A DNA stretch of 14,181 nucleotides from Promethearchaeota archaeon (lineage in GTDB: Archaea; Asgardarchaeota; Lokiarchaeia; Sigynarchaeales; SOKP01): positions 1 through 14,181 of the forward strand of contig JAUWBH010000161.1 in assembly GCA_030605085.1 (NCBI GenBank), given 5' to 3'. The position numbers and the translations under genes were made by a program. The number at the start of each line of letters is the position of its first letter. Position 1 is the first letter of the stretch. This document shows positions 981 through 14,181 of the stretch, in pieces. Under the pieces are notes generated by a model, which was not told the DNA's origin, made no database searches, and was given only the letters and a program-made list of their open reading frames with translations.

Positions 981-1314
981 ATAATTTACTCGATATTGTA
1001 GAAAATCCGACAGAGAAAGACTTCTTAGCTTAATAAACACTATCTTTAATAATATTAAATATAATGGATTTAAAGCGCGCTAAAAAACGATTTATAAAAA
1101 TGTACAAAGACACTCTTATAATTTACCTAACTGACAATTCAGAAATACAGGTGAAAATTTGCTAGTAAAAAAAATTAAAGATTTAAAAATTCCCTAATCA
1201 AAAATCGTTGGAATTACCTTTGTTGGCTATGTCCCTCGTTTTTAAAAATCAAACCGCAAATAAAATTTAAACCAAATTAAATCTAATAGTACTGATAGAA
1301 CAAATTGCTAAACA
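981..1314. other. Gap between the IS and the HEPN-like gene
   Basis: This AT-rich stretch holds no convincing gene. The only readable frame is a 33-codon one at 1064-1165 (plus strand, starting MDLKRAKKRFIKMYKD) with an AT-rich TATA-like stretch just before it. It has no SD and no recognisable similarity and may be chance or a decayed fragment. The right end of the IS should lie in the first tens of bases. The last part is the 3' flank of the minus-strand gene ending at 1315. Confidence 0.4.
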
Positions 1315-2100: not shown

Positions 2101-2136
2101 AAATAAAAATATTCAAGGAGATTTTAAGTGAAAATC

Positions 2137-2145
2137 TATATAAAA
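2137..2145 (-). promoter_or_regulatory. TATA element in the divergent spacer
   Basis: TATATAAAA on the plus strand reads TTTTATATA on the minus strand. From its centre a minus-strand transcript would begin near 2115, about 15 bases before the ATG at 2100, which fits. It lies only 5 bases before the plus-strand ATG at 2151, too close to drive that gene from the usual distance. The plus-strand gene may use another element. Confidence 0.45.
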
Positions 2146-2150
2146 GTACA

Positions 2151-3989
2151 ATGGTAAGCATAAATGAAAAATCTAAACTAATAAAGATTATCCAAAAGGA
2201 GCAACTTACTGAAGAAGATAAAGAAGAATTAAGACATATACTAAGCAAACTTCCTTCTGAAGAATTGAAATCGTTATTGGGTAAGATATATGAGCTATTT
2301 ATTAAAAATTATATGAATCTTAATAGTCGAAATTCTGAAAGTGAAGAAGAAATTGCCCATTACAATAGGTGGTTAACAGATAACATTAGAAATTACATAA
2401 TGAACCTCGATAATAGGATCAAGTTTCTATTTGAGCCGTATGAATCTTTTCTTAGAATGGATTCCCTTTTCGGTTTAAGTGAGCGATACCTTGTTAATCA
2501 GAGAACGATAAAGAATGCTAATAAAATAATCGCAAAAAGCGTATTGGATAATATGAGGGATAACCTCGTGCAAATAGTCCAAGAATGGATAAATAAAGAT
2601 CCTAGATTAACAGAGCTACTTTTAAAAGCTCAATTTGACATTATTGGGTTCATTGACGATTACGAGATAAGATTCAACCCATCACCAACACCGTGGACTC
2701 CAATGTCAAAAAGTAAATCTTTAATTGAACATCAACAAGACATAGAGGGTATCGTAAAGGCAAAGGGAGGAGAAATAATTAAAGCAGAATGGAGACAAGT
2801 AGGAAAAGAAAAGAATATTAATGCTCCATTTTTTTTAATTAGATGCAATAAAGGACACGAATGGTGGGCTCTTAAATCAATTCTAAATCCCACACCAAGT
2901 AGACCATACAGCTCTTGGTGTACTCATCCCGACTGCAGAAGAAAGTCTTTAATCGATCATCAACGAGACATAGAGGGTATCGTAAAGGCGAAGGGAGGAG
3001 AAATAATTAAAGCAGAATGGAGAATAATAGGCAAGAAAAGAAAAGTAAATGCACCATTTTTTAAAATTAGATGCAATAAAGGACACGAATTTTGGGTTCG
3101 GAAAAATTTTTTAATCCCCTCATTAAGGAGACCAAAAGGCTCTTGGTGTACACATCCAGATTGTAGAGGCAAATCTTTGAGCGAACATAGACGAGAAATT
3201 GAGAGCATCGTAAAGGCTAAGGGAGGAAAAATAATAGATCAAGAATTGATAAGAATGAATAATAGGAATAGAGCACATTTCCGTATAGAATGCAGAAAAA
3301 AACATAGATGGTGGGTTCTTAAAAATAATTTAATACCTTCGGTTACTAATCTTGCAGGTACTTGGTGTCCTACATGTCAAGACAGAATTTCTGCTATTGG
3401 TACTTTTGGTCATGTTCCCATCGAGTATTTCAGTTTGATTCATTTTAATTCAAAAAATTGTAAAGTTGCACACGAAAAAACTCTTGAAGAAGGAACACGC
3501 CCAGATCTTATTGTCGAAAGAGAAGATAATTTTAAGGATAAGATCGAGAAACGCCAAAAAGTTGTTGTATTTCCGTATTATATAAAAAGGATTGCGGTCG
3601 ATTTTACGATGTCGTTAACCTCTTCTACAATTTTGAAAAAATGCTTCAAAAATTACCAAAGTAAAACAAGATTTTTACTAATCGTTCTAATGCGTGAAGG
3701 AAAGTATGTAACGCCACAAAAGGTTCAAAATTTAATTAATATCAATCCAGATATCAATAGCGAAGACAAAAAAAGAATTAAAGTTATCAATTTCGAAGCA
3801 TATCTGGATTTCTTAAATTTAGGTAGTCGTAACTTAGATAAGACTGAAAAAGAGAAGAAAATCGAATCAAAGCTTCGAGGGATTGTAACATTGTGTAAAA
3901 AGTCTGTTGATTCAGATTCTGCCATTGCAACGCTTGTAGAAAAAAGCGAAAAGTACGCTAAATTACTTGGAATTAATTGTATTGTGTAA
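2151..3989 (+). CDS. Protein with three tandem zinc-ribbon units and a possible nuclease-like C-terminus
   Basis: This is a 612-residue protein. Residues 1-185 are helical and charged. Residues 190-410 are three consecutive units of 76, 76 and about 69 residues. Each has a conserved lead (SL-x-EH/DH ... IVKAKGG), then C-x3-H (C232/H236; C308/H312; C381 with H385), then a WC...C pair (C257/C262; C333/C338; C406/C409), as in treble-clef or probable zinc-ribbon domains of the type C-x2-GHxW...CPxC. Residues 411-490 contain RPDLIVE (450-456) and IAVDFT (481-486), which could be the acidic positions of a PD-(D/E)XK fold, but the usual lysine is replaced by threonine. Such zinc units usually bind DNA or RNA. 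The divergent HEPN-like neighbour suggests a defence or nucleic-acid-sensing pair; this is inference. Part of the repeat DNA is almost identical between units 1 and 2. Confidence 0.6.
   Translation: MVSINEKSKLIKIIQKEQLTEEDKEELRHILSKLPSEELKSLLGKIYELFIKNYMNLNSRNSESEEEIAHYNRWLTDNIRNYIMNLDNRIKFLFEPYESFLRMDSLFGLSERYLVNQRTIKNANKIIAKSVLDNMRDNLVQIVQEWINKDPRLTELLLKAQFDIIGFIDDYEIRFNPSPTPWTPMSKSKSLIEHQQDIEGIVKAKGGEIIKAEWRQVGKEKNINAPFFLIRCNKGHEWWALKSILNPTPSRPYSSWCTHPDCRRKSLIDHQRDIEGIVKAKGGEIIKAEWRIIGKKRKVNAPFFKIRCNKGHEFWVRKNFLIPSLRRPKGSWCTHPDCRGKSLSEHRREIESIVKAKGGKIIDQELIRMNNRNRAHFRIECRKKHRWWVLKNNLIPSVTNLAGTWCPTCQDRISAIGTFGHVPIEYFSLIHFNSKNCKVAHEKTLEEGTRPDLIVEREDNFKDKIEKRQKVVVFPYYIKRIAVDFTMSLTSSTILKKCFKNYQSKTRFLLIVLMREGKYVTPQKVQNLININPDINSEDKKRIKVINFEAYLDFLNLGSRNLDKTEKEKKIESKLRGIVTLCKKSVDSDSAIATLVEKSEKYAKLLGINCIV
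2718..3380 (+). repeat. Three in-frame tandem repeats (about 228 bp)
   Basis: Units begin at 2718, 2946 and 3174. Units 1 and 2 are both exactly 228 bp and are nearly identical in DNA from the IEGIVKAKGG region through IIKAEWR, with few silent differences. Unit 3 is shorter and more divergent, with a CPTC ending instead of CTHPDC. The pattern suggests recent internal duplication or gene conversion of units 1 and 2. Confidence 0.85.
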
Positions 3990-4081
3990 AAAAGAGATCT
4001 TGGAATAACTATTAATTTTTGGTTTTAAGGTTAAAAATTATAGAAGCGAAACCATCGTGGAAAAACTCAAGAGTTTATTTT

Positions 4082-4094
4082 AAAAAAAAAAAAA
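4082..4094 (-). terminator. T-tract terminator of the roadblock/V4R operon
   Basis: A run of 13 A on the plus strand reads as T13 on the minus strand, 16 bases after the stop of the V4R-like gene. Archaeal polymerase terminates at T-rich tracts without needing a hairpin. No strong stem is seen next to it. Confidence 0.6.
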
Positions 4095-4109
4095 TTACAA
4101 TACAATGAT

Positions 4110-4583
4110 TTAATTAACCTTTATACTAAATGTACAATCGCATACTTCCTCTGATTTTAACTTAACGCTATTGAACTCAACACTATTTAATGCATTTTTA
4201 GCAATAGTTTCTATTAATCCTTCAGTATAAGTGCAGAAAAATTTATTAGATATCTCAATGCCTGCAGTTTTAAACGGGCACGCTTTAATTAAAATTATTA
4301 TCTCATTTCCATCCATCTTTATTTCTGACTTACCCTCGCCTACTGCGGGATCGATTACTTCCTTTACCAACAGTTCAGAAAGTTTGTCAGGTGTCCACTT
4401 ATCAATTTTATGAGTTTCTCTCAACCTTTTTTCTACTATCTCCCCTTGACGCTCCCCTATAAGTCGAAAGATGGTCTGAATTGTTTCTGGCCCCATAACG
4501 TTATTAAATTCGTCCATAGCCATTTTAAACATAGTGGAAATAAATTTTAATTGACCTATCCTACGCTTTAATCTTTCACTCAT
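4110..4583 (-). CDS. V4R-like (4-vinyl-reductase-type) ligand-binding domain protein
   Basis: This is a 157-residue soluble single-domain protein. The N-terminal half is helical (GPETIQTIFRLIGERQGEIVEKRL). The C-terminal half has ACPFKTAG (101-108), FFCTYTEGLIETIAKNAL (115-132) and a closing EEVCDCTFSIKV (145-156), with cysteines at 102, 117, 148 and 150. This matches the pattern of V4R and related archaeal output domains, which bind small hydrophobic ligands, metals or gases through conserved cysteines. No catalytic domain is attached, so a sensory or scaffolding role is inferred. The gene is second in an operon: its ATG lies 11 bases after the roadblock stop, with GTGAG in the spacer as a weak SD. 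The family call is from motif shape only. Confidence 0.55.
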   Translation of the reverse strand: MSERLKRRIGQLKFISTMFKMAMDEFNNVMGPETIQTIFRLIGERQGEIVEKRLRETHKIDKWTPDKLSELLVKEVIDPAVGEGKSEIKMDGNEIIILIKACPFKTAGIEISNKFFCTYTEGLIETIAKNALNSVEFNSVKLKSEEVCDCTFSIKVN

Positions 4584-4594
4584 ATTTTATCTCA

Positions 4595-4966
4595 CTATTC
4601 TGATTTAAATATCTCACTTATTTTATTACTGGTATCCTCTATTTCTAATGTAACTAAACCTACATTTGGTTCTTTTTTTGTTATTGCAACTAAAATCACT
4701 CTTCCCGCCCCTATAAGAAACATGTTACCTTTATCTAGCTCTAAATTTAAGCTTTTAAAATTCCCATCAAAGAGAGCTTCCGCAGATCTCTTGGAAGTCC
4801 CTAAAAGAACTGCTGACATTGCTGCAATCATCCTCTCGTTTGATTCACTCGGAAGTGCAGACGCAATAACTAAACCATTAGTTCTTATAACTGCTGAACC
4901 TGTAATATCGGGTACTTTTTCTTCAAGTTCTTTTAAAATTTTAACTACATCATCGACTTTACTCAT
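4595..4966 (-). CDS. Roadblock/LC7 domain protein
   Basis: This is a 123-residue, one-domain protein of normal roadblock length. It shows a first helix (VVKILKELEEKVPDI), the central strand with TNGLVIASALP (29-39), the long helix ERMIAAMSAVLLGTSKRSAEAL (44-65), and two closing strands (KSLNLELDKGNMFLIGAGRVILVAIT). Roadblock proteins act as dimeric platforms that regulate small Ras-like GTPases, as MglB does for MglA or Ragulator for Rag GTPases, and Asgard genomes have many. The partner GTPase is not in this operon; the longin-GTPase at 9909-10832 is the only GTPase in the window and any link is speculation. GAGGTGA (minus strand, 4972-4978) is a strong SD 5 bases before the ATG and fixes the start. 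Confidence 0.85.
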   Translation of the reverse strand: MSKVDDVVKILKELEEKVPDITGSAVIRTNGLVIASALPSESNERMIAAMSAVLLGTSKRSAEALFDGNFKSLNLELDKGNMFLIGAGRVILVAITKKEPNVGLVTLEIEDTSNKISEIFKSE

Positions 4967-4971
4967 TTAAA

Positions 4972-5030
4972 TCACCTCAAACTAAAAATCTACTACCAAT
5001 AAAATCAACATAAAAATCCTAATATATAAA
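4972..5030 (-). promoter_or_regulatory. Promoter and SD of the roadblock/V4R operon
   Basis: On the minus strand a TATA element TTTATATAT (5022-5030) lies about 25 bases before a likely start of transcription near 5000. This gives a short leader that contains the SD GAGGTGA (4972-4978). Confidence 0.55.
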
Positions 5031-5130
5031 TGTTTTGAGAGATGTTTCTAACTTTACAAATATTCGTTAAATTTGATAATTTTGAACAATATACTTTTTA
5101 TAATATTTTGATTTTTTATAGATCTTCTGA

Positions 5131-5490
5131 AAATGTTATGGTACAACTGGACCAAGAGTTATAATAGAATTTTATTTAGAAAATCACTTTATGGGCGACA
5201 TTATAAATTTAAAAAATAATCCTAACCTAACAAATAATAGAGAAATTAAAATTAAAGTAATTAGTCCAATTACAATTTCTAAAATTGAAATCATTAGGAA
5301 TAAATTGTTATTTAAAAGAGAAATTGTTAATTCTGATAACTTTTTAATTTGTTTCACGGATCACGAATCTTTTGATGATGTTGCTTTAAATCACGCTCAA
5401 AAAGATGAGAAATTCGTTTTTTATTATGTTAGAATATTTCTTTTGAACGAAAACATGGCTTGGTCCAGTCCCATTTGGATAATTAAATGA
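5131..5490 (+). pseudogene. C-terminal remnant of a DUF3604 (CehA/McbA-like) protein
   Basis: The open stretch begins after an in-frame TGA (5128-5130) and TAG (5119-5121). It starts with KCYGTTGPRVIIEFYL, the signature near the C-terminal part of DUF3604 proteins (R-CY-x-TTG-x-RI). It ends with FYYVRIFLLNENMAWSSPIW (the YYVRV...AWSSPIW signature that closes the family). The catalytic PHP-like domain upstream is absent. The TGA falls where the family usually has an arginine, as expected from CGA to TGA decay. An ATG at 5191 could still start a 99-residue beta-sandwich fragment, so residual expression is possible, but the signature at 5131-5190 shows that the ATG is not the ancestral start. 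Upstream sequence back to about 5040 shows only unreadable AT-rich remnants. Confidence 0.75.
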
Positions 5491-5570
5491 CTCTAATTCC
5501 TTCTAATTATTGACATGGCTAACTATTAATTTTTTGATATTATGAGTTAAATAATCAAAAATACATCATA

Positions 5571-5580
5571 TTTAAATATA
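5571..5580 (+). promoter_or_regulatory. TATA element before the microprotein pair
   Basis: TTTAAATATA lies about 80 bases before the first Met-Cys microprotein and would give a leader of about 55 bases. A second A/T-rich element (about 5624-5635) would instead give a leaderless start near 5656. I cannot choose between them. Confidence 0.35.
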
Positions 5581-5657
5581 AATACTACTAATAATATTAT
5601 GTAAGATTTTGATCATTAATATTATTAAAAATATTTTTGTCGGTTTGTATAAAAAAA

Positions 5658-5762
5658 ATGTGTTATTTTAGCAATTATAGGAGGAAGGAAGATTTTTATA
5701 GGGACACTTCTGAGATTGAAGAAAAACTTTTAGAAGAAATAGTTCCTGAACTTGAAAAATAA
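5658..5762 (+). CDS. Microprotein A, Met-Cys-x-Phe family (34 aa)
   Basis: The product begins MCYFSNYRRKED and ends LLEEIVPELEK. It is not recognised. The case for it being a gene is its paralogue 36 bases downstream, which shares the start M-C-x-F-x2-Y-x(1-2)-R and the ending LEE(I/V)V-x-(E/K)-LEK. The intervening part is highly charged. The second residue, cysteine, would become N-terminal after Met removal. There is no membrane segment. No SD is visible just before the ATG, which is preceded by A8. Confidence 0.45.
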   Translation: MCYFSNYRRKEDFYRDTSEIEEKLLEEIVPELEK

Positions 5763-5798
5763 TAATAACATAATAAAAAATCTGAGGTATGTTAAATA

Positions 5799-5915
5799 AT
5801 GTGTTCGTTTGGCATGTATTGGAGATTGAGGGAAGATAAGAAGGAGGAATTTGACGAAAAAGAACTGCCTTTAGAAGAAGTTGTCGTAAAATTAGAAAAA
5901 CTAAAAGTAATTTAA
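5799..5915 (+). CDS. Microprotein B, Met-Cys-x-Phe family (38 aa)
   Basis: The product begins MCSFGMYWRLRED and ends LEEVVVKLEKLKVI. It is a tandem paralogue of the 34-residue product upstream, sharing the Met-Cys-x-Phe-x2-Tyr start, an Arg/Glu/Asp-rich middle and the amphipathic C-terminal helix. A good SD (GAGGT, 5784-5788) lies 10 bases before the ATG at 5799, which supports translation. An alternative ATG within the SD region (5789) leads to an unrelated 16-codon frame and is disfavoured. Function is unknown. Retention of both ends while the middle diverges suggests selection on the two ends. Confidence 0.55.
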   Translation: MCSFGMYWRLREDKKEEFDEKELPLEEVVVKLEKLKVI

Positions 5916-6041
5916 TTTTTTTATTTTATCTTTTTTTATAATTTTTTCACTTTGTACAATCTTGTGTATTTATTACAGAAGTTTGAAAACAATTTGATTT
6001 TAGGAGATGAGATAGATATAAATAAATGAAGTGTTTTTATA

Positions 6042-6074
6042 TTACTATTAAGATGTGTTAACATCTTAATGTAA
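6042..6074. repeat. Strong inverted repeat between microprotein B and the zinc-ribbon gene
   Basis: The arms ATTAAGATGT (6047-6056) and ACATCTTAAT (6061-6070) are perfect complements around a GTTA loop. Pairing can extend through TTA/TAA (6042-6044 with 6072-6074) with one bulge and one wobble. It lies about 130 bases after microprotein B and about 70 bases before the zinc-ribbon ATG, upstream of that gene's TATA element. It could be an operator or a hairpin in the 3' end of the microprotein transcript. A downstream T7 run (about 6101-6107) is too distant to be certain of a terminator. Confidence 0.6.
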
Positions 6075-6114
6075 TTTGTCTAATTAACAGAATAAAAGGA
6101 TTTTTTTAAAAGAG

Positions 6115-6123
6115 TTATTTAAA
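6115..6123 (+). promoter_or_regulatory. TATA element of the zinc-ribbon gene
   Basis: TTATTTAAA is centred about 24 bases before the ATG at 6143, so the transcript probably begins at or next to the start codon (leaderless). No SD is visible. Confidence 0.45.
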
Positions 6124-6142
6124 CAGTCCATGAGATAAAAAT

Positions 6143-6304
6143 ATGGCTGCACCTAAAGCACATCCTAAGATTGAAGTACTTCAATGTGATAAATGTGGCG
6201 GAACGATGACCTTAATAAAAGTTGCCGTTAAAAACTCAAGTACTTTTAAATTACTAGACATTTTTCAATGTAAAATTTGTAGACATTGGATAAAAACAGA
6301 CTAA
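6143..6304 (+). CDS. Small zinc-ribbon protein (53 aa)
   Basis: This is a one-domain protein with two CxxC knuckles, QCDKCGG (C15, C18) and QCKICRHW (C43, C46), separated by 24 residues that include KVAVKNSSTFKLLDIF. This is a classic four-cysteine zinc ribbon, with a proline- and lysine-containing N-terminus (MAAPKAHPK). It is not a RING: it lacks the eight-ligand cross-brace spacing. Such small ribbons in archaea bind nucleic acid or protein. It is a stand-alone gene with its own TATA element. It lies 1.1 kb before the modifier gene on the same strand, with a membrane protein between, so a link to the ubiquitin-like system is only positional. Confidence 0.7.
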   Translation: MAAPKAHPKIEVLQCDKCGGTMTLIKVAVKNSSTFKLLDIFQCKICRHWIKTD

Positions 6305-6467
6305 TTTTTTGTTTTGACTAAATAAATTAGTTTTTTACTAAGATTTTTTTACATTTAAGTAAAAACATATAGATAGATTGAATTAATCTTTTATATTTTC
6401 TATTGTTATTTCAACAAGATTTACTCAAACATTAAAAAATTATAACAAATAAGGGTGAAGTTATAAA

Positions 6468-7172
6468 ATGCTTGTATTTGAAGGATGGATTGATGGAATT
6501 ACTGCAGCAGGCGTAGTTATTATTGGATGTGTATGTGGATTGATCTTTATCTATAAATCGAAAAAGCTAGAAGCTGGACTTCTTTTTTATTTGGGGTTAC
6601 TTATTATTTTGGCGGGGCTTGCGTTTTTAGGAGTATTTTTAGATTTTTTAACCGTTATTTTCACTGGTAGCAATATGGATAACACATACGGAATGATCGG
6701 GCTCTTATCATACATCTGGGTTGCGCCCCTTGTCGTTCTTGGAATGTATATTGGCGCCGAGCTTCTGGTACCAGAAAAAAAGTTGCATATTACAATTGTA
6801 TACATAATTTTAATGATCGTTTTTGAGATATTGATATTTTTAAATCCATTGGGCAGTTTGAATTTTGTTTATCCTAAAAAACCAGGTGAAAAGTTAATTG
6901 ATTACAATCTCGTTTTGTTTTCCCCTGCAGGAATCTTAATGATTATATTTATTGTCTCGATGATAATATTCTTAGGCGTGGGTTTTTTAGTAAAAGGGAT
7001 TCAAGCTACTGGAGATTTAAGGAAAAAATTTTTATTTTTATCAATAGGTGTTTTTATATATTCTATTTTTGGATTACTTGAGAGCTTAACTGAACCAGGA
7101 CTTCTTTTAATTATCATTAGAATTGGTTATATTAGCGGTCCTATGTTTATGTATTTAGGATTAAAATCCTAA
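6468..7172 (+). CDS. Seven-helix integral membrane protein
   Basis: The 234-residue product has seven hydrophobic helices at about residues 9-29, 36-65, 75-98, 107-128, 150-178, 188-206 and 211-232. The loops are short, apart from one of about 20 residues between helices 4 and 5 (YPKKPGEKLIDYN). There is no signal peptide beyond helix 1 and no soluble domain. The topology resembles the seven-helix sensor or receptor-like proteins common in Asgard and other archaea, but no catalytic or retinal-binding residue is evident; helix 7 lacks the retinal lysine. GGTGA (6454-6458) is a good SD 9 bases before the ATG, and a TATA-like stretch lies near 6389-6398. The gene is followed by a long T-tract. 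Function is unknown. Confidence 0.7.
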   Translation: MLVFEGWIDGITAAGVVIIGCVCGLIFIYKSKKLEAGLLFYLGLLIILAGLAFLGVFLDFLTVIFTGSNMDNTYGMIGLLSYIWVAPLVVLGMYIGAELLVPEKKLHITIVYIILMIVFEILIFLNPLGSLNFVYPKKPGEKLIDYNLVLFSPAGILMIIFIVSMIIFLGVGFLVKGIQATGDLRKKFLFLSIGVFIYSIFGLLESLTEPGLLLIIIRIGYISGPMFMYLGLKS

Positions 7173-7176
7173 GTCA

Positions 7177-7213
7177 ATTAAAAAAACTTTTTTTTATTTT
7201 TTTATTTTTAATT
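7177..7213 (+). terminator. T-rich terminator after the membrane protein gene
   Basis: Nearly continuous T (about 7188-7210) begins 16 bases after the stop. It is flanked by AATTAAAAA (from 7177) and TTTTTAATT (to about 7211), which can pair. This is typical of archaeal T-tract termination and separates the gene from the modifier gene downstream. Confidence 0.6.
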
Positions 7214-7365
7214 AAAAAAGTGTGAAATCTAAACGCTTTCATATATAATCTGATTTTAAAAAAAAAATATCTAAAAAAATTAAAATTGAAACTTAACATA
7301 TTATTATTTAATTATTTAATACAAATTATAGAATGAAAATTAAAAATAAAAGAAGCGAATGATTA

Positions 7366-7620
7366 ATGAGAATCTCAGTGGAAGATAGCCGAACAGGTAA
7401 ATTGATAAAACTTGACGTAAAAGAGCATCATGTAATTGAACGTATCGTAGATATTATAATTAAACATATGGGTATTATTAGCGCTGAACAACGTTCATAT
7501 ACATTAGTTCTTAATGGTCAGGAATTACCAACTAATATCACTGTTAAGGACGCTGTTCATAAGTTTGGCTTAAAGGAGAATGATAAGTTGGCTTTATGGG
7601 CTAGGGTAGTTGGAGGGTAG
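7366..7620 (+). CDS. Ubiquitin-like modifier ending in Gly-Gly
   Basis: This is an 84-residue beta-grasp protein slightly longer than ubiquitin (76). It shows the first hairpin (RISVEDSRTGKLIKLDV, residues 2-18), a helix (HHVIERIVDIIIKHMG, 21-36), then YTLVLNGQEL (45-54) matching the ubiquitin LIFAGKQL region, and a last strand DKLALWARVVGG (73-84). The C-terminus is Gly83-Gly84 with no residue after it, so it is made in mature form and needs no protease before activation. Lysines at 12, 15, 19, 33, 61, 66, 70 and 74 could in principle accept chains. It converges on the E2 gene 95 bases away; E1 and a JAMM peptidase lie on the opposite strand. The start has no SD, and an A/T element at about 7340-7348 suggests a leaderless or short-leader transcript. 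Confidence 0.88.
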   Translation: MRISVEDSRTGKLIKLDVKEHHVIERIVDIIIKHMGIISAEQRSYTLVLNGQELPTNITVKDAVHKFGLKENDKLALWARVVGG

Positions 7621-7651
7621 CTCTTTAGTAATTCTGTCATATTTCATTACC

Positions 7652-7673
7652 AAAAAAAGGAATTTTAAAAAAA
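7652..7673 (-). terminator. T-tracts after the E2 gene
   Basis: Two A7 runs (7652-7658 and 7667-7673) in the convergent spacer read as T7 on the minus strand, about 43 and 58 bases after the E2 stop. They are suitable for archaeal termination. A matching tract for the modifier transcript is less clear. Confidence 0.4.
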
Positions 7674-7715
7674 GGGCAGAATTTTAATAACCTTATTTCT
7701 CTTTATAGACTTATC

Positions 7716-8291
7716 TTATTCGTCAATAATAATGATATCTTCATCATCCGCCCCTTTTTCTTCTTCTGCTTCTTCGATATCATATTGTAATCTGAGATCT
7801 GCCATAGAATTTTGCTTAAAAAATTCAGCAGCTTTTTTACATATAGGATAATTTAAAGAATCATCAGGATTAGGGTTTTCCACCAACATTTGCAACGCCT
7901 TTACGGTTGATTCGAGATCGGAAAGGCGAGACCATTTCTTTAATATATTGAGGCAAATAAATCCAGTACCAGTTTCATCTGTATAATAGTTAGATTTAAC
8001 AGGATGTATATTGGGATGGAGAATATCAGAGTACCAACTAAAATCAAGCCCTCCTGGATAGGGAAAGCTTCTGTTAAGCTTTAGAAAAACTCGATGGGCT
8101 TTTTGGGGGATTAAATCCATGTCACCTTTCTCTAATTTCATTAAAAATCCAACCGCTCTTATGTTGATTATAAATTCGACTGAGTTTTCGTCTTGAATTA
8201 CGGTTCCTTCTTCGAGAACGCCTAAACTCTCTAATGTTTTTAACTCATTATTGATTCTGTCAACCCATATCTCCTTGGGTAATTCGGGAAT
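7716..8291 (-). CDS. E2 ubiquitin-conjugating-like enzyme, probable ATT start
   Basis: The E2 carries the activated modifier as a thioester on a cysteine and passes it to targets. The first ATG (8141) would remove helix 1 and strands 1-2. The frame continues 54 codons upstream to TAA 8304-8306 and encodes what an E2 needs: helix PELPKEIWVDRINNELKTLE, then a strand VEFIINIRAVGF. No ATG, GTG or TTG occurs there. ATT at 8291 lies where a leaderless transcript from TATA 8313-8321 would begin, so I place the start there (191 residues). Motifs by that numbering: FPYPGG (76-81), HPNI (92-95), catalytic FICLNILKKW (Cys113), LVENPNPDDSLN (136-147). Between HPN and Cys113 are 18 residues instead of the usual 7. 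The tail (from about 171) is acidic, ending DDEDIIIIDE. An assembly error at the 5' end is the alternative to an unusual start. Confidence 0.85.
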   Translation of the reverse strand: MPELPKEIWVDRINNELKTLESLGVLEEGTVIQDENSVEFIINIRAVGFLMKLEKGDMDLIPQKAHRVFLKLNRSFPYPGGLDFSWYSDILHPNIHPVKSNYYTDETGTGFICLNILKKWSRLSDLESTVKALQMLVENPNPDDSLNYPICKKAAEFFKQNSMADLRLQYDIEEAEEEKGADDEDIIIIDE

Positions 8292-8312
8292 TTTTAAGAC
8301 CTTTTATTCTTT

Positions 8313-8321
8313 TATTTAAAA
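8313..8321 (-). promoter_or_regulatory. TATA element of the E2 gene
   Basis: TTTTAAATA on the minus strand lies 22-30 bases before the proposed ATT start at 8291, the normal distance to an archaeal transcription start. It shows that E2 has its own promoter, separate from the E1/JAMM/GTPase operon, and supports a leaderless mRNA. The rest of the spacer to 8504 is AT-rich with no gene; a small hairpin AAAGT-TAAT-ACTTT lies near 8430-8445. Confidence 0.5.
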
Positions 8322-8504
8322 GATGAAATCAAATCTCACACATAAATAAGTGTTTTTAACTAATATATATTTCTCATAAATATTAATTTTAAACATTAAT
8401 TATTAAAAAATTTCTAATTTATATGTATTTAAAGTTAATACTTTAAGCTAAAAAACAGTATAAGCTGAATTTTACATAATAAGAAATATTTTTTTGAAGT
8501 AAAA

Positions 8505-9398
8505 TTAATTTTTTTTATAGGAACAAGTCCAACACTCAGGGTTTTTCAGCTTTTTAATTGTTTCAAATTTATTTGTTAGTCCATTATAATTAAGTTGTTT
8601 CCCTATGAGTGGTTTTCCTATATGTAAATTCCATTTTCCATGCTCTTTAAAATAATCAAGACCTAAAATAAATTTCAATACTTGTTGCGACTGAATTCCA
8701 CCAATTATTGAGGTAGTAGTGATAATAGTTGCGATTTTTCCAAAAGTTTCACCATTTTCAGATTTAATTTCTTGGCCAGTACACGAAAATTTTTTCCACA
8801 TTAAATCCAGGTCGGTACCAGTAATGCCACATTGCAAACAAGCTGCGTTTTCTACACTTGAATAAACTGCCTGAACAGAACCGTAAAATTCGTCAATTCC
8901 AGAATCTATGAAAGGGATACCATTATAATACGAATAATTATTTGCTTCAAGCCGAGCTTCTAAATTATCAAGGCAAGAGCAAATCACATCGCATTGTTTA
9001 TAAAGATTTTTATCAATACTGTTTAAATCCTTTTTTATTGGAACGATATTTACCTCTGGATTTAATTCTTCACAGACTTTCTTAACAACATCGACTTTAT
9101 ATTTATTTTCTATTGCGCTATCCATATTGAATAAAACACATCGATTTAAGTTTGATTTTTCGATGATATCAAAATCAATTAAAACTATTTTTCCAATCCC
9201 CGTTAAAACTAAATTCTTTACTAGCTCATTGCCAGTCGCTCCTGCGCCAACAACCATAACTGTTGCATTAGCTATTTTATTTTGATCCCATCCGGCTATT
9301 CGTTTTTGACGATCGTACTTATCGTCGTCTATTGATGTCTCTTCTAAAACTTCTAAATCTTCAACTTCTTCTTTTTTTGTCATTTTAATGTTAAACAA
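8505..9398 (-). CDS. E1-like ubiquitin-activating enzyme (minimal, UBA/ThiF fold)
   Basis: This enzyme adenylates the modifier C-terminus with ATP and hands it to the E2. It is 297 residues: one adenylation domain without the separate catalytic-cysteine and ubiquitin-fold domains of eukaryotic E1. Motifs: DRQKRIAGWDQ (29-39), the nucleotide loop VVGAGATGNELVKNL (49-63), DFDIIEKSNLNRCVLF (75-90, with the ATP-contacting arginine 86), CSCLDN (140-145), and zinc-binding CLQC (187-190) and CWTC (289-292). FSCTGQE (Cys206) lies where Uba4-type E1s place their active cysteine. The acidic N-terminus (10-27) is extra. The TTG at 9398 opens the frame 10 bases after the JAMM stop; an ATG at 9383 is an equally possible start, and neither has an SD. 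It is the third gene of the operon. Confidence 0.9.
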   Translation of the reverse strand: MFNIKMTKKEEVEDLEVLEETSIDDDKYDRQKRIAGWDQNKIANATVMVVGAGATGNELVKNLVLTGIGKIVLIDFDIIEKSNLNRCVLFNMDSAIENKYKVDVVKKVCEELNPEVNIVPIKKDLNSIDKNLYKQCDVICSCLDNLEARLEANNYSYYNGIPFIDSGIDEFYGSVQAVYSSVENAACLQCGITGTDLDLMWKKFSCTGQEIKSENGETFGKIATIITTTSIIGGIQSQQVLKFILGLDYFKEHGKWNLHIGKPLIGKQLNYNGLTNKFETIKKLKNPECWTCSYKKN

Positions 9399-9408
9399 AT
9401 CGAGTTAT

Positions 9409-9900
9409 TTATCCAGAGATAATTGCAAAACTCAGTTCTCTATATTTTTTGATATTATTATTGTCTAGCGCGAAAAAATTGAAAGAATCTTTAATAGGAT
9501 CAACGACCAAAGCTACTTGATACGATTCAGGAAAGAAAAATTCTTGTGTTGCTATATCAATAGTACTCAAAAAACATCCGAAATTTGGATGAGAATGCCA
9601 CCAACCGAGCACGCGAATGTCTTTGTCTTTTCTTTTATGTTTTAATTTCTGAAATTTTTCATCGTATTGACCAGCAGTTCCTTCAATTTGTGCCGTTGAA
9701 TATTTATGACTGTGAATTGCGCCTTTAATATAGAGTGGATCCCTTATTATAACATATGTTTGTCCTTTCCATTTAAAGATATTCCCAATTAAATATCCAA
9801 ATATTTCTAAATTAGTACTTTTGCATAGTTTTACAATAAATTCTATAACTTTTTTCGTAACATAAACCGGGAAAACGAAGTCATCATCGTCTATATTCAT
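9409..9900 (-). CDS. JAMM/MPN+ metalloprotease, Rpn11-like deubiquitinase
   Basis: This is a 163-residue zinc isopeptidase domain of minimal MPN length. The complete JAMM set is visible: Glu32 (LEIFGYLIG) and H-S-H-x7-S-x2-D in WWHSHPNFGCFLSTIDIATQ (His102, His104, Ser112, Asp115). The GW-x-HSHP-x-FGC-x-LS-x2-D-x-TQ stretch is very close to the eukaryotic Rpn11/CSN5 pattern, including the cysteine after FG. The modifier already ends in Gly-Gly, so the likely job is removal of conjugated modifier rather than maturation. The second operon gene, it starts 8 bases after the GTPase stop with AGGAAAAG in the gap as SD. No extra domain ties it to a proteasome. Confidence 0.92.
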   Translation of the reverse strand: MNIDDDDFVFPVYVTKKVIEFIVKLCKSTNLEIFGYLIGNIFKWKGQTYVIIRDPLYIKGAIHSHKYSTAQIEGTAGQYDEKFQKLKHKRKDKDIRVLGWWHSHPNFGCFLSTIDIATQEFFFPESYQVALVVDPIKDSFNFFALDNNNIKKYRELSFAIISG

Positions 9901-9908
9901 CTTTTCCT

Positions 9909-10832
9909 TTAATCTCGGCTTTGTTGTTCTTGAATTTTGTCTAATATTGAATTTATTAATATTTCATTAAATATTGAATCTATCTCTTTTTTTGCATCTT
10001 TATGGATTGCAGAAAATCCGTAAGTTTTAATTCCAAACGATTTTTCTATTTTTTCTGGTTCAAAGGCAGCATCTTCAATATCTTGGAAGTTTGCGATTAT
10101 GTAAAAATCTGCTTTTTTCACTTTTGGTTTTAATCGAGAAACTAATCTTTTTGTTCTTCCTAAATTACTTGCTGCTGAATTTGTAATAATGCAAATTGCA
10201 TCCACAGTATTTAATAAAGGTCTATAAGTTTTTGATTTATCAACTAATTCTTCTAAATCGAATTCTCTTAACAAAAATTGTTTTAAATCGCCTAAATCAG
10301 ATACATTTACCGTTTTTTGTATAACTTCAATTAAGTCATCATCTAATTCGAGAATAGTCTCTCCGGGAAATAAATCCATGATAGTTGTCTTTCCAACACC
10401 GATCTCTCCAGTTAATAATATTTTGGGAGGTATAAAAATATATTCTTCCACGAATTCATCAAAGTCATAAAATTCGGAGACACATCCTCTAAAATCTTCT
10501 AATTGTGATCGAAATCTATTTATAAATTCTTTTTTTATCAATTCAACTTGGGGTCTCGCTTCTTCTTCTGGATCGTCAATGTCGGTGACAATTACAAACA
10601 TGGCACCAAATTCAATGTCGTAGGAATAAACAAAATTGCAATTCATGAAATTGAGGGATCTTATATCGCCCCCTTGAATTTCTTTAGCGAACGAGCTTAT
10701 TGCAGTAAGGAATCCACCAATTAAATCTTCTTCCACAAAATTTTCCTCAACTTCTGCTGAAGGCTCCACGAAAAATTTTTTAGCGTAACAAACTACGCCC
10801 CCTAAAGTTAAAACAAAAATTCTTGAGATCAT
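9909..10832 (-). CDS. Longin-like domain fused to small GTPase
   Basis: The product has 307 residues. Residues 1-115 form a longin/roadblock-type alpha-beta domain (MISRIFVLTLGGVVCYAKKF, then EEDLIGGFLTAISSFAKEI, FVYSYDIEFGAMFVIVTDID, VELIKKEFINRF). Residues 136-300 form a Ras/Arf-like GTPase: P-loop LLTGEIGVGKTTI (139-151), DTV-type strand NTVDAICIITNSA (208-220), FYIIANFQDIEDAA (243-256) in the place of NKxD, and GFSAIHKDA (272-280) as the G5 loop. The guanine-specificity motif is thus altered (ANFQD). Longin domains regulate or recruit trafficking GTPases in eukaryotes, and such fusions are typical of Asgard genomes. First in the operon with JAMM and E1, it implies that modifier activation or removal is linked to a GTP-controlled, perhaps membrane-associated, process. 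GAGG at 10847-10850 is a possible distant SD. Confidence 0.8.
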   Translation of the reverse strand: MISRIFVLTLGGVVCYAKKFFVEPSAEVEENFVEEDLIGGFLTAISSFAKEIQGGDIRSLNFMNCNFVYSYDIEFGAMFVIVTDIDDPEEEARPQVELIKKEFINRFRSQLEDFRGCVSEFYDFDEFVEEYIFIPPKILLTGEIGVGKTTIMDLFPGETILELDDDLIEVIQKTVNVSDLGDLKQFLLREFDLEELVDKSKTYRPLLNTVDAICIITNSAASNLGRTKRLVSRLKPKVKKADFYIIANFQDIEDAAFEPEKIEKSFGIKTYGFSAIHKDAKKEIDSIFNEILINSILDKIQEQQSRD

Positions 10833-10861
10833 TTCAGATTTCTTTTCCTCTTTGCTTATTT

Positions 10862-10877
10862 ATTAATAAATATAAAG
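10862..10877 (-). promoter_or_regulatory. TATA region of the longin-GTPase/JAMM/E1 operon
   Basis: On the minus strand CTTTATATTT, ending in an AT-rich run, lies 30-45 bases before the ATG at 10832. This is consistent with a short-leader transcript for all three genes. No repeat or operator is obvious next to it. Confidence 0.45.
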
Positions 10878-11105
10878 AGCTCATTTACTAACATTGCATA
10901 ATGGATTAAATTTTTAATACTCTATTTTTAATTTTCATTTTCTTATATTTATTTATTTTTAAGTTTATTGCACATTTTAATTTAATTCAATTTATATAGT
11001 CAAAAAAATCAATAACATTTATACCAAATATTATCAAATAATAGTATTTTTGTAATTATTTCGAAAATACTACTGTAAATCAGAAAGTCTTTACACTATA
11101 GACGC
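10878..11105. other. AT-rich divergent spacer
   Basis: This lies between the GTPase operon (minus) and the structured-RNA candidate (plus). It has long A/T stretches and no frame of note on either strand. I see only the promoter regions listed at its two edges. Confidence 0.4.
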
Positions 11106-11113
11106 TTAAATAT
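11106..11113 (+). promoter_or_regulatory. TATA element before the structured-RNA candidate
   Basis: TTAAATAT preceded by GACGC puts a transcription start at about 11133-11136, exactly where the first RNA hairpin begins. Between them a perfect palindrome (CTCAATAT 11119-11126 and ATATTGAG 11131-11138, loop TAAT) overlaps the predicted start and could be an operator. Confidence 0.5.
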
Positions 11114-11132
11114 TTTAACTCAATATTAATAT

Positions 11133-11334
11133 ATTGAGGAGTTCCCTCAATAGTAGAAAAGTTTTCTCGTTCCGAGAATGGGAGAGCATAACTGAAAGCC
11201 CGTCCAGCGCAGATCTGGATGACGACCTTTCGGAGTAGAAAAGCATTCCCAAATTCCGCAACGGATGACGGGATAGAGGCGTTCGGACTAATGCCGCAAA
11301 TAATTCAACAAAATATCGTTGATAACATTATTTG
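11133..11334 (+). ncRNA. GC-rich structured RNA candidate, family unknown
   Basis: This island of roughly balanced base composition is set in very AT-rich DNA with no coding frame. Helices visible by eye: 11132-11139/11145-11152 (8 bp); TTCTCG/CGAGAA 11164-11169/11173-11178; closing helix TGGGAG/TTCCCA 11179-11184/11246-11251; inside it an irregular 14-bp hairpin, CTGAAAG/CTTTCGG 11192-11198/11227-11233 continuing as CGTCCAG 11201-11207 with CTG 11215-11217 and GACG 11221-11224; TCCG/CGGA 11255-11258/11262-11265; GGCGTT/AATGCC 11278-11283/11290-11295; and CAAATAAT/ATTATTTG 11297-11304/11327-11334 around TCAAC/GTTGA. AGTAGAAAAG (11152, 11234) and GGATGACG (11217, 11263) each occur twice. I do not recognise RNase P, SRP, 5S, tRNA, box C/D or a known riboswitch. 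The strand is set by the TATA element. Confidence 0.6.
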
Positions 11335-11389
11335 AAATAATTTGAATATCGTTTTATTCATTTTGATAGTCTTATTAATACTATTGCTC

Positions 11390-11415
11390 AGAATTTATTA
11401 TCTGCAATAAATTTT
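11390..11415. repeat. Hairpin in the spacer after the RNA candidate
   Basis: AATTTATT (11392-11399) and AATAAATT (11406-11413) are perfect complements around ATCTGC, extendable by an A-T and a G-T pair. It may be a 3'-end structure or chance in AT-rich DNA. The rest of 11335-11501 shows nothing else apart from TTTTTAAAT (11469-11477), a TATA element for the small gene that follows. Confidence 0.35.
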
Positions 11416-11501
11416 CAATTTTAATACGATAAGTAAATATTACAAAATTTTAAATAAGTTCGAATAGATTTTTAAATCAAAGCATTAGTTATGTTATTTA
11501 T

Positions 11502-11645
11502 ATGAGCGACCAAAAAGAAAAAGAAAAAGTTACGGAAGAAGAAGAATCTCATGATTGGAATGTAGCTATTGAAGATAAAGAAATTCCAGAGATAAAACCT
11601 CCAAATGATAAAATTATTTATCACAATCTTATAAAAAAAGATTAA
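11502..11645 (+). CDS. Small acidic protein (47 aa)
   Basis: The product begins MSDQKEKEKVTEEEE and continues HDWNVAIEDKEIPEIKPPN to IIYHNLIKKD. It is unrecognised, hydrophilic and probably disordered in its first 16 residues, with an aromatic, proline-containing second half. TTTTTAAAT at 11469-11477 puts a transcription start at about 11500, so translation would be leaderless from this ATG. The opposite strand carries a 68-residue F/N/I-rich frame (11472-11678), which looks like a shadow of the AT-rich codons. It sits between the structured-RNA candidate and the FAD enzyme, on the same strand as both. Confidence 0.45.
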   Translation: MSDQKEKEKVTEEEESHDWNVAIEDKEIPEIKPPNDKIIYHNLIKKD

Positions 11646-11792
11646 ATCAAATTTTATCTTAATGTGACTATTTATCATTCTAATTATAAATGAGAATCCA
11701 TAATGAACTTAGTAAAAGTGTTTTTTAGTAAATATTTTTAATTTTTTAAAAGATAATTGCATTTTAATTAAAATTATGTTAATCGAATCGAA

Positions 11793-13199
11793 ATGACGAC
11801 ATTAAAAATAGGGATTGTAGGCGCAGGCTCTGCTGGGTTGTTTGCTGCAAACGAACTTGGTAAAAAAAACCTAAATAGTGTAAAAATCACTATTTTTGAA
11901 CAAGGTCCTGAAGTAGATAAACGATTTTGTCCTCTGAAAGATGGGTACGCGTGTGCGCAGTGTTATCCGTGTAAAATTATGAGTGGAGTTGGCGGTGCAG
12001 GTGCTTTTTCTTCCGGCATTTTAAATCTAAACAAAAAGATAGGTGGAGATCTTGAAGAACTGTGTAAAAACGCTAATTTGAATGTTAACGATATTATTCA
12101 AGAGATTGATGATTTCTTCATTCAAAATGGTGCTCCAAATAAAATTTTTGATCCTTATCAAAATAAAGAGAAATTAAAAGAATTAAGAAAAAAATGTGCT
12201 ACTTTAGATATTGGATTTGTGCCTATAAAGCAAAGACTTCTAGGTTCTGAAAATACTCCAAAAGTAATTAAATCCATTCAAAATTATTTAACCTCTCATT
12301 ATGACATTAAAATTCTCCCAAATACTAAAATAATTTCTTTTGACAAAAATTTAACCCTAACTTTTGAAGAAGGAAGAAGAGAAAAGTTCGATTATCTTCT
12401 TTTAGCTCCTGGACGAACAGGGATGGTGTGGCTGGCCGAACAATGCGAGGAAAATGGAATCAACACATTTTACGAACCTTTAGATATTGGTGTAAGAGTT
12501 GAAGTCCCATCGATCATAATGGAAGAAGTCTGTGAACACATCCAACGAGATCCAAAATTCCACATCATGACTCCTACCTACAACGATTTTGTGAGGACTT
12601 TCTGCGTAAATTATAAAGGATATGTCGTGAAAGAGACATACGAAGAAAGTATTGTAGGGGTGAATGGACATCAACTTACCTTAGATGGAGATTCTGAAAA
12701 TACAAACTTCGCATTTTTAATTCGACAGCGTTTAACAAGCCCACTCGAAGATACAACCGAATATGGGCGATCTATATGTAAACAAACCTCAATTTTAGGA
12801 GGATATAAGCCCATAATCCAAACTTTAGGAGATCTGCGAGGAGGGCACCGATCAAGAAATGCTACAATTGATAAAAATCCTGTTAAACCAACATTGAAAG
12901 AAGCTACTCCCGGCGATGTAGCAATGGCTTATCCATATCGCTTTGTGATGGATATTTTAGAGGGACTCGAAATTCTTGACAATGTAATCCCCGGTGTAAA
13001 TAACAATAGCACTTTAATATACGCTCCTGAATTTAAGAGAAGTGCTAAAAGAATCGAAACAAACGAGGTCTTAGAATCGAAATCTATTAAAGATCTCTTT
13101 TTTGCTGGTGATGGTGCTGGTGTATCTAGAGGGATCGTTGGTGCAGCTGTTACAGGGAAAATAGCTGCCCGTGGAATCATTGACAAAATTATGAATTAA
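11793..13199 (+). CDS. FAD-dependent dehydrogenase, COG2509-type
   Basis: The 468-residue cytoplasmic flavoprotein has an N-terminal Rossmann fold KIGIVGAGSAGLFAANEL (G10-x-G12-x2-G15, with E36 for the ribose) and a C-terminal FAD motif DLFFAGDGAGVSRGIVGAA. RFCPLKDGYACAQCYPC gives four cysteines (46, 54, 57, 60; C-x7-C-x2-C-x2-C) directly before MSGVGGAGAFSSG, the arrangement typical of COG2509 proteins. The cysteines may hold a metal or Fe-S centre or act in redox chemistry; the substrate is unknown. LLLAPGRTG is the second nucleotide-contacting strand. No reductase partner or thioredoxin is adjacent. The ATG at 11793 is immediately before the GxGxxG strand; an AT-rich TATA-like element at about 11763-11772 implies a nearly leaderless mRNA. 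Length and motifs are complete. Confidence 0.85.
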   Translation: MTTLKIGIVGAGSAGLFAANELGKKNLNSVKITIFEQGPEVDKRFCPLKDGYACAQCYPCKIMSGVGGAGAFSSGILNLNKKIGGDLEELCKNANLNVNDIIQEIDDFFIQNGAPNKIFDPYQNKEKLKELRKKCATLDIGFVPIKQRLLGSENTPKVIKSIQNYLTSHYDIKILPNTKIISFDKNLTLTFEEGRREKFDYLLLAPGRTGMVWLAEQCEENGINTFYEPLDIGVRVEVPSIIMEEVCEHIQRDPKFHIMTPTYNDFVRTFCVNYKGYVVKETYEESIVGVNGHQLTLDGDSENTNFAFLIRQRLTSPLEDTTEYGRSICKQTSILGGYKPIIQTLGDLRGGHRSRNATIDKNPVKPTLKEATPGDVAMAYPYRFVMDILEGLEILDNVIPGVNNNSTLIYAPEFKRSAKRIETNEVLESKSIKDLFFAGDGAGVSRGIVGAAVTGKIAARGIIDKIMN

Positions 13200-13598
13200 A
13201 ACGGCACTAAAAACATTTTTACAGAAGTATTTTATTGAGTGGGATGAAAATGGGCAATTTTTTTAATAAATAAAGAAAAGAGAAGGGAAAACGAAATCAA
13301 GCCAAAAAATGTAAAAATTAGGGAAAGAATTAAACTACTAAAGAGTTTAATAGAGGGCGAAATCCAATGTTATGGCTATCGATATCGTTTATTTTAATTT
13401 CCCTTCTTTGTTTTAATATAGTATTTAATATTTAAAAAGAATTGTATTATGAAATATTATGTTCGTCAAGAACTCACATTTTTTTAAGAGTTAGAAACAA
13501 AAATTTTATAAATATGTTTCATTAAAATTGAAACTTATTCAAAAAAATCTACGATTATTTAAATAAAATCACTATGATCTCTTCAATTTTTAACTTTT
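13200..13598. other. Convergent spacer between the FAD enzyme and the MBL-fold gene
   Basis: A T7 run at 13258-13264 could end the FAD-gene transcript. A 22-codon frame at 13367-13435 (MLWLSISFILISLLCFNIVFNI) would be one hydrophobic helix and has GAGGGCGA shortly upstream, but is too short to defend. An overlapping frame at about 13244-13392 reads KPKNVKIRERIKLLKSLIEG but has no ATG, GTG or TTG. The rest is AT-rich and without structure I can name. Confidence 0.35.
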
Positions 13599-14181
13599 TC
13601 ATTCTAATATCTCAGATATTTTAAGTTTTAATCCATCTTGTGCTGCGATTATTTTTTTTATATTAGTTTTTTCTTTTAATTTTTCAACTTGGCTTGATAC
13701 ACGATTCTTATTTGAAGATCTAAAACCATCCATATAGGACCCAAAATGCGTAATAATCAAAGCATCAAGATGTGGTTTAATTTTATTTAAATGTGGGATA
13801 ACTTCGTCGGTGCAGAGATGCCTTCTGCAGAAGACAGAATCAGGTCTTAAAAGGTTAAGCATGAGAATGTTTACACCAGAAAATTGTTCTGAAAAACCAT
13901 CAAACACCTTAGTATCACTTGAAAATGCGATTGTATAATCTTTAAGATTGAATCTAACACCAAAACCTTCTACATTTGAATGGATTACTTTTGTTCCAAT
14001 TATTTCTATACCATTGTAATCTAAACAATCTGCAGATTTAAATACAATTACCTTTTCGAGCATACTTTGGTGGTAAGGCTCAATATGTTTAAGTACATCA
14101 TCTGTCGTTATTAATATTCCCTTTTTGAAATAGTTGTAATTACGATCGTGTAATGTTTCTCTTGAAGCCTCTATAATTGCG
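13599..14181 (-). CDS. Metallo-beta-lactamase-fold hydrolase, C-terminal part (5' beyond window)
   Basis: The frame is open through the right edge: codons upstream of the internal ATG at 14063 (AIIEASRETLHDRNYNYFKK, LITTDDVLKHIEPYHQSM) continue it, so the true start lies outside. The visible part shows late features of the MBL fold: IIGTKVIHSNVEGFGVRFNL, then YTIAFSSDT with the metal-binding aspartate, a strand NILMLNLLRPD, HLCTDEVIPHLNKIKP and LIITHFG with the final histidine. The HxHxDH motif would be upstream, off the window. The layout resembles Elac/PhnP-like and uncharacterised archaeal MBL hydrolases (COG1234/1235 type), which act on RNA or small phosphoesters; the substrate cannot be told from this part. 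The gene converges with the FAD dehydrogenase. Confidence 0.75.
   Translation of the reverse strand, partial: AIIEASRETLHDRNYNYFKKGILITTDDVLKHIEPYHQSMLEKVIVFKSADCLDYNGIEIIGTKVIHSNVEGFGVRFNLKDYTIAFSSDTKVFDGFSEQFSGVNILMLNLLRPDSVFCRRHLCTDEVIPHLNKIKPHLDALIITHFGSYMDGFRSSNKNRVSSQVEKLKEKTNIKKIIAAQDGLKLKISEILE

Follow-up and report, generated by a model that had tools for sequence, protein, structure and literature searches.

An archaeal ubiquitin cascade consisting of an activating enzyme (E1), a conjugating enzyme (E2), srfp, and Rpn11 has been described for Caldiarchaeum subterraneum (PMC5654768, PMC6043591), Hatano 2022 (PMC9192718) deals with Lokiarchaeal ubiquitin/ESCRT regions, and a longin domain fused to a Rag/Arf-like small GTPase has been reported for the Asgard strain MK-D1 (PMC10933270). 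In this study we analyze a stretch of 14,181 nucleotides from a Promethearchaeota archaeon (the window; contig JAUWBH010000161.1 of assembly GCA_030605085.1, positions 1..14,181), in which positions 7366..10832 encode a modifier, an E2, an E1, a JAMM protein, and a GTPase. Together they form a complete-looking ubiquitin-like (Ubl) cassette of a kind already outlined by the work on Caldiarchaeum and Asgard archaea, but this is a separate variant, restricted to one lineage, that is accompanied by a GTPase and probably by membrane RING proteins. Judging from the genes and their motifs, the modeled folds of the modifier and the G domain, the conserved gene order, and the co-distribution described below, we consider it likely that this is a dedicated conjugation pathway of the Lokiarchaeia and the third type of E2 cascade in this lineage. 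The pathway is probably membrane associated.

A conserved cassette with a convergent modifier gene

The window and the C. subterraneum locus have in common a GG-ending Ub-like modifier, an E1, an E2, and an Rpn11-type JAMM. The Caldiarchaeum modifier has a pro-peptide of 9 residues, the operon includes a small RING E3 (ubiquitin ligase), and the JAMM gene is transcribed against it, whereas in the window the modifier has no tail, the cluster is without a RING gene (that of the relatives lies outside the JAMM-E1-E2 unit), and the JAMM gene stands in one unit with E1, with the GTPase gene leading and the modifier gene convergent.

An earlier note on this DNA had recognized a cassette for Ubl activation, conjugation, and removal, and this observation is confirmed. 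All five genes lie where they had been placed, and the catalytic motifs of the four conjugation and removal proteins (the GG end, the E2 HPN and Cys, the E1 loop with Cys206, and the JAMM ligands) are present and conserved across relatives. The accompanying interpretation holds only in part: the enzymes and a modifier modeled as beta-grasp stand, the identity with a known cluster does not (see below), and the likely E3, a membrane RING protein found in relatives, had been overlooked.

With an E2 profile we collected 21 related loci from a genome collection (L numbers below), all of them from Lokiarchaeota or Lokiarchaeia. In all 21, JAMM, E1, and E2 are consecutive and share a strand, and the modifier gene runs toward them on the opposite one. 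The opposite-strand modifier, which the earlier note listed among the features of this arrangement, is the rule. The GTPase gene stands directly ahead of JAMM in 18 of the 21, with frames -95 to +44 bases apart; it lies beyond the modifier in L013 and was not seen in L014, and in L019 the contig ends. This recurrence of gene order makes the cassette more than a chance arrangement. Sets of modifier, GTPase, and membrane RING protein, with E1 and E2 not in the fetched stretch, occur twice in L187 and once in L196. The modifier was found in 29 of 227 Asgard-phylum genomes, of which 28 belong to this class (one match being a short fragment); the 29th, the only match among 144 phylum genomes outside the class, is weak. 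Within the class, 24 of 83 genomes hold both modifier and E2, four the modifier alone, and none the E2 alone.

The modifier gene (7366..7620, plus strand) encodes 84 residues that end exactly in GG (mature C terminus ...ARVVGG). Among the best 120 of 196 modifier homologues, 119 have GG and one SG at this point, and the tail behind it is 0 to 10 residues long, being absent from 14 of them as it is from the window protein. The AlphaFold2 model (mean local confidence, pLDDT, 82.5) has the ubiquitin fold, and its highest structural identity among the matches listed is to ubiquitin; the structure prediction that could have refuted the earlier reading thus returned a beta-grasp fold. The assignment rests on this model; plain Pfam called no ubiquitin family, and its best match, Rad60-SLD (E = 0.012), is below the cutoff. 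Two points count against the assignment, namely, that two of the five models were poor and that an hhalign comparison with the ubiquitin of system A (see below) was uninformative (0.9% probability). A comparison of the modifier profile with the PDB was set aside as proof of fold, as strong E values arose only for polyubiquitin chains, through summing over repeats, and single ubiquitin scored 0.2 to 1. The modifier is the most conserved member of the cassette, with a mean pairwise identity of 77.6%, followed by E1 (70.0%), E2 (62.1%), JAMM (57.0%), and the GTPase (52.9%). Alignments A1 and A4 hold 16 and 49 of the 120 listed modifiers, respectively, each with the window sequence. Elsewhere, a modifier-like domain lies near the N terminus of a 542-residue protein in one genome (L189:9911-11536), and L052 and L054 encode a second small protein ending in GG.

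The profile searches proposed in the earlier note called UQ_con in the E2 (6.8e-9), ThiF in the E1 (9e-51), and JAB in the JAMM protein (1.7e-11), all above the Pfam cutoffs, and failed for ubiquitin in the modifier; the GTPase, too, remained below. The E1 gene (8505..9383, minus strand) had been given a TTG start at 9398; an ATG at 9383 is used here instead, as 21 of 22 sequences (the window and the 21 loci) have methionine in that column. Numbered from the TTG, the ThiF match covers residues 34 to 290 of 297. Cys206, both CxxC pairs, SNLNR (residues 82 to 86), and R149 are present in all 22, and DN.EAR is likewise invariant in the alignment. Cys206, downstream of the first CxxC in a stretch that is invariant at SCTG, is the candidate catalytic cysteine. 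In the PDB, the E1 matches a single adenylation half of enzymes of the UBA1 type (residues ~400 to 570 of the chain), MoeB over nearly its full length, and UBA5 chains. The separate Cys domain and ubiquitin-fold domain of canonical E1s are not present in this protein, which the ThiF match fills. Because a single ThiF domain leaves no room for a C-terminal E2-recruiting domain, the enzyme is noncanonical and MoeB/UBA5-like in build. The predicted JAMM isopeptidase (9409..9900, minus strand) matches Rpn11 best in the PDB, followed by CSN5 and AMSH, and its E32, H102, H104, and D115 ligands, together with S112, are present in all 22 sequences.

The E2 gene (7716..8291, minus strand) encodes 191 residues if translation begins at an ATT at 8291. 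H92-P93-N94 and C113 are invariant over 21 aligned rows (alignment A2, 20 of 120 listed homologues plus the window), and the closest PDB matches are of the UBC12, RAD6/UBE2A, and UBE2N types. The number 113 that the earlier note gave to the cysteine is valid only with the ATT start. The frame offers no ATG, GTG, or TTG ahead of an internal methionine at residue 51 (counted from the ATT). At the ATT (8289-8291), 14 of 20 aligned homologues have methionine, and the other six begin one to a few residues earlier. P0001, a protein from another assembly source that differs at one position, has also been predicted from the internal methionine only (141 residues), which makes a simple assembly slip less likely; the ATT may serve as an unusual start codon, be the damaged remnant of a usual one, or reflect an error in the sequence. 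At its other end the window E2 has an acidic run and the tail DIIIIDE. Such a run with an I/V-rich stretch closes all seven E2s of this cluster (C-type) that we examined, and nine E2s of systems A and B end otherwise. The strict pattern occurs in 110 of the best 120 of 223 E2 homologues, most others being close and two lacking the tail. We take the pattern to be akin to a SUMO-interacting motif, and propose that the tail might dock the modifier or E1. The promoter of its own that the earlier note ascribed to the E2 is a putative one. A 213-base AT-rich gap separates E1 from E2 in the window, but in 20 of the 21 loci the E2 start lies at most 135 bases from the E1 stop, the exception being L006 (~2.7 kb, 7302-9982).

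Relation to other conjugation systems

The earlier note had likened the locus to the ubiquitin clusters known from Caldiarchaeum and Asgard archaea. An ordinary Asgard ubiquitin system, orthologous to the Caldiarchaeum cascade and merely rearranged, would indeed contain the same enzymes, but this explanation is improbable given what else the same genomes encode. For these counts, and for those of E1s, RING domains, and GTPases below, we used eight of the 21 locus genomes (G numbers), all picked for holding the cluster. Seven of the eight have two further E2 types elsewhere and G001 has one; these match PF00179 far more strongly (1.3e-23 to 4.6e-26 for unsplit frames, 1.4e-15 and 2.6e-12 for two split ones) than the C-type E2s do (1.4e-8 to 9.9e-12). 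The window E2 is 18 to 24% identical to those of systems A and B, which are 40 to 41% identical to each other (three A and two B sequences), and cluster E2s are set apart from A and B in a comparison of five C, three A, and two B sequences, which contained no Caldiarchaeum or eukaryotic ones. Since two other E2 types co-occur and the E2 identity is so low, we regard the cluster as a third, diverged cascade; the simple equation with a known cluster is not sustained.

In system A, ubiquitin, E1 (~410 to 430 residues), E2, and JAMM (~275 residues) are encoded together. It resembles the cluster in lineage and in this gene set and differs in its loci, in an E2 21 to 28% identical to the C-type E2s compared, in its longer E1 and JAMM, and in its ubiquitin, which ends in STAG in nearly all copies examined rather than in GG. 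The ending is PASTAG, not GG, in L057, L059, L060, L063, and L065, and L183 encodes a RING-H2-like protein (zf-RING_2, 9.7e-8) near system A. In system B, an E1 of 527 to 530 residues lies beside a protein of 1653 to 2125 residues in L182, L185, and L198, with an E2 nearby in L182 and L185; the giant protein of L182, the one scanned, contains MIT and TPR repeats, and no ubiquitin was seen beside system B in the stretches examined. The long B-type E1 is present in all eight genomes, and the B-type E2 frame is split in G004 and G005. Outside the fetched stretches, assignment to A or B is our reading of the neighboring matches.

The E1 invites two further comparisons. Its MoeB-type length, zinc CxxC pairs, and best NCBIfam matches (MoeB/ThiF, all far below cutoff) would suit a sulfur-carrier or SAMP/Urm1-like pathway, in which the modifier serves tRNA or cofactor thiolation and E2 and JAMM have side functions. 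We find this very improbable, as the modifier is accompanied, in the co-distribution given above, by a true E2 in which Cys and HPN are conserved, and the eight genomes contain other ThiF-family E1s, in G002 and G006 with a separate GG-ending small protein within 8 kb of one. UFM1/UBA5-type systems likewise have a minimal single-domain E1 with an in-domain cysteine and very short modifier tails. The cluster is similar in E1 build and in the very short tails of its modifiers, and it differs by its UQ_con E2, its JAMM isopeptidase, and a modifier whose structural identity, among the matches listed, is highest to ubiquitin.

Least probable in our view is that this is an antiviral Ubl operon comparable to the Bil/Bub/6A systems of bacteria. 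PADLOC E1-E2 and JAB models match E1 (3e-17) and JAMM (2e-7), NCBIfam 6A-MBL models match both far below cutoff, BubCD chains are among the PDB matches of E1 (1e-10), and in L013 a longin-TIR gene adjoins the modifier. These PADLOC and NCBIfam matches are, however, to generic shared E1/JAB domains only, PADLOC at E 0.01 gave nothing for modifier, E2, or GTPase, and a single arrangement is kept over the 21 loci, with the one weak modifier match outside the class. A dedicated Lokiarchaeal pathway remains our preferred explanation. A search of literature titles and abstract starts returned no Lokiarchaeal membrane RING protein or GTPase-led Ubl operon; the PMC5654768 supplement, of which the figure legend names a "Cluster III," lay outside that search and may already depict this cluster.

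The GTPase and the membrane RING proteins

The leading gene (9909..10832, minus strand) encodes a GTPase with an Arf-type G domain, as judged by its fold-search match. The longin-GTPase that the earlier note placed ahead of E1 and JAMM agrees with the position of the gene and with the fold match of its G domain; the longin-like N domain is our own reading of an order of strands and helices that fits longin, the fold-search rows covering mainly the G domain. A longin fold search by VIA returned no longin row, the G domain filling the list. Asgard longin-GTPases would share the predicted domain fusion. According to PMC10933270, in which the word ubiquitin does not appear, Asgard GTPases as a rule do not share operons with RB, longin, or TRAPPC3 genes, whereas the clade of the window is tied to a Ubl operon. 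All 14 GTPases scoring above 180 bits in the eight genomes lie within 10 kb of a modifier gene, compared with none of 16 lower-scoring ones and a chance expectation of 0.15. Class-wide, with at most 28 candidates scored per genome, 33 of 41 close GTPases lie within this distance, and the GTPase was found in 25 of 28 class genomes with the modifier and in one of 55 without.

Some observations weaken the case for a dedicated GTPase switch. The remaining eight of the 41 are on contigs that carry no modifier, and in the sets seen without E1 and E2 only the G domain of the GTPase is matched by the GTPase model. In the window protein NFQD stands in place of NKxD. No DxxG is recognizable, so that the protein may not hydrolyze GTP. 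Homologues were taken as the best 120 of 318 matches, and alignment A3 comprises 46 of these plus the window. The TIR domain of the L013 protein (L013:9273-10169) occupies residues 171 to 280 of this match to the window GTPase. Three longin-GTPases of 874 to 890 residues carry a C-terminal carbon-nitrogen hydrolase domain (L001:5768-8437, L010:3264-5885, and L015:5837-8488).

In most relatives, a multispanning protein with a C-terminal, eight-ligand C4C4 RING-like domain is encoded beside the modifier; multispanning is assigned from hydrophobic sequence and from matches of 2 of 16 members to HisKA_7TM, which are below cutoff where an E value is given. The spacing C-x2-C-x(10-12)-C-x2-C-x4-C-x2-C-x(10)-C-x2-C is kept in 21 aligned copies, with one ligand His in L002 and one in L015 (alignment A6, 21 of 25 pattern matches, leaving out three copies from L012 and the RING of system A; alignment A5 comprises 16 of the membrane-protein matches). 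The motif is intact in 14 of the 21 loci; it is on a 599-residue zinc-ribbon protein in L002 and in short frames in L009 and L019 (109 and 135 residues, that of L019 at the contig end), and the L006 contig ends shortly past the modifier. PDB profile matches, from E 5e-4, are mainly RING ligases of the RNF4, RBBP6, and RNF113 types and MDM2, and include the TFIIH p44 RING. Within the eight genomes, 17 of 45 RING matches lie within 10 kb of a modifier (0.41 expected). At E<=1e-15 the domain is present in 35 of 83 class genomes (187 matches, up to 17 per genome), comprising 26 of the 28 genomes that have the modifier and 9 of the 55 that do not. Fisher's test, made with no correction for phylogeny, gives p=8e-12, a value that overstates independence because class genomes share ancestry. 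The membrane RING protein of the relatives is, from its sequence and linkage, most likely the E3 of the pathway.

Several points argue the other way. The motif is broken or altered in L001, L014, and L021 and was not seen beside the modifier in L008, L011, and L016; a pattern scan of all window frames of at least 25 residues found none; and the individual calls are weak (Pfam zf-C3HC4_3 in 8 of 16 members and C1_2 in 14 of 16, the best E listed being 1.2e-4 or weaker), with PHD and C1 domains among the PDB profile matches. Furthermore, 28 of the 45 matches in the eight genomes are unlinked to a modifier, the RING model, being derived mainly from linked copies, favors the detection of such copies, and nine class genomes have the domain with no modifier detected. 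It is conceivable, though somewhat unlikely, that the cascade is as we describe but that the membrane protein does not act as its E3 and carries, as its cysteine-rich part, a C1, zinc-ribbon, or sensing domain. The frequent C1_2 matches, the double zinc ribbon matches in 6 of 16 members, and the loci lacking the protein fit such an alternative, but the conserved eight-ligand spacing, the lead of RING ligases among PDB matches, and the genomic linkage to the modifier speak for an E3. In the window, the neighboring multispanning protein (6468..7172, plus strand) is of a RING-less type, related to the membrane RING proteins and resembling copies in L003 and L012. Its RING partner would then be encoded at another site in this genome or have been lost.

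Neighboring genes and the proposed pathway

Upstream of this membrane protein, a zinc-ribbon-like open reading frame (ORF) of 53 residues (6143..6304, plus strand) recurs near the modifier in 4 of the 21 loci (L002, L003, L004, and L006). On the far side of the cassette, an FAD-dependent oxidoreductase gene (11793-13199) recurs close to the cluster in L003, L004, and L006, and an MBL (metallo-beta-lactamase)-like gene (13599-14180) does so in L002, L003, L004, and L006. The window further contains an IS630-type transposase in two ORFs (1-980; helix-turn-helix part, 1-453; DDE part, 504-980), a 612-residue protein (2151-3989) with three internal repeats (HxxxIExIVKAKGG...) and only weak BRCT and zinc-ribbon matches, and a Roadblock protein adjoining a MetOD1-like protein on the minus strand (4110-4966).

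For the catalytic steps, the E3 function, and the role of the membrane, we infer the following course. E1 would adenylate the C-terminal glycine of the modifier with ATP and then carry the modifier on Cys206, from which it would pass to Cys113 of E2. An E3 encoded outside the window, most likely the membrane protein with the C-terminal C4C4 RING, would bring E2 to substrates at the membrane. The JAMM protein would cut conjugates and, in relatives that have one, trim the short modifier tail, a step that the window modifier does not need. The longin Arf-like GTPase, whose gene forms a unit with those of JAMM and E1, probably positions the machinery on membranes or gates it there.

More broadly, it is possible, although we hold this only tentatively, that Lokiarchaeia evolved a membrane-anchored Ubl signaling system parallel to ubiquitin, built from a single E1 and a single E2, a GTPase acting as a switch, and RING proteins of one family serving as E3s. 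If so, this would be a prokaryotic conjugation network with many E3s and its own modifier, separate from eukaryotic SUMO, NEDD8, and UFM1. With five genes, the set is compact enough for expression and testing, and it provides a specific candidate for a connection of Ubl conjugation to the membrane-type GTPases of Asgard archaea. If our reading is right, the division of Ubl pathways into separate E1-E2 pairs, each with its own modifier and with membrane E3s and GTPase coupling, would have begun among the archaea related to the host of eukaryotes.

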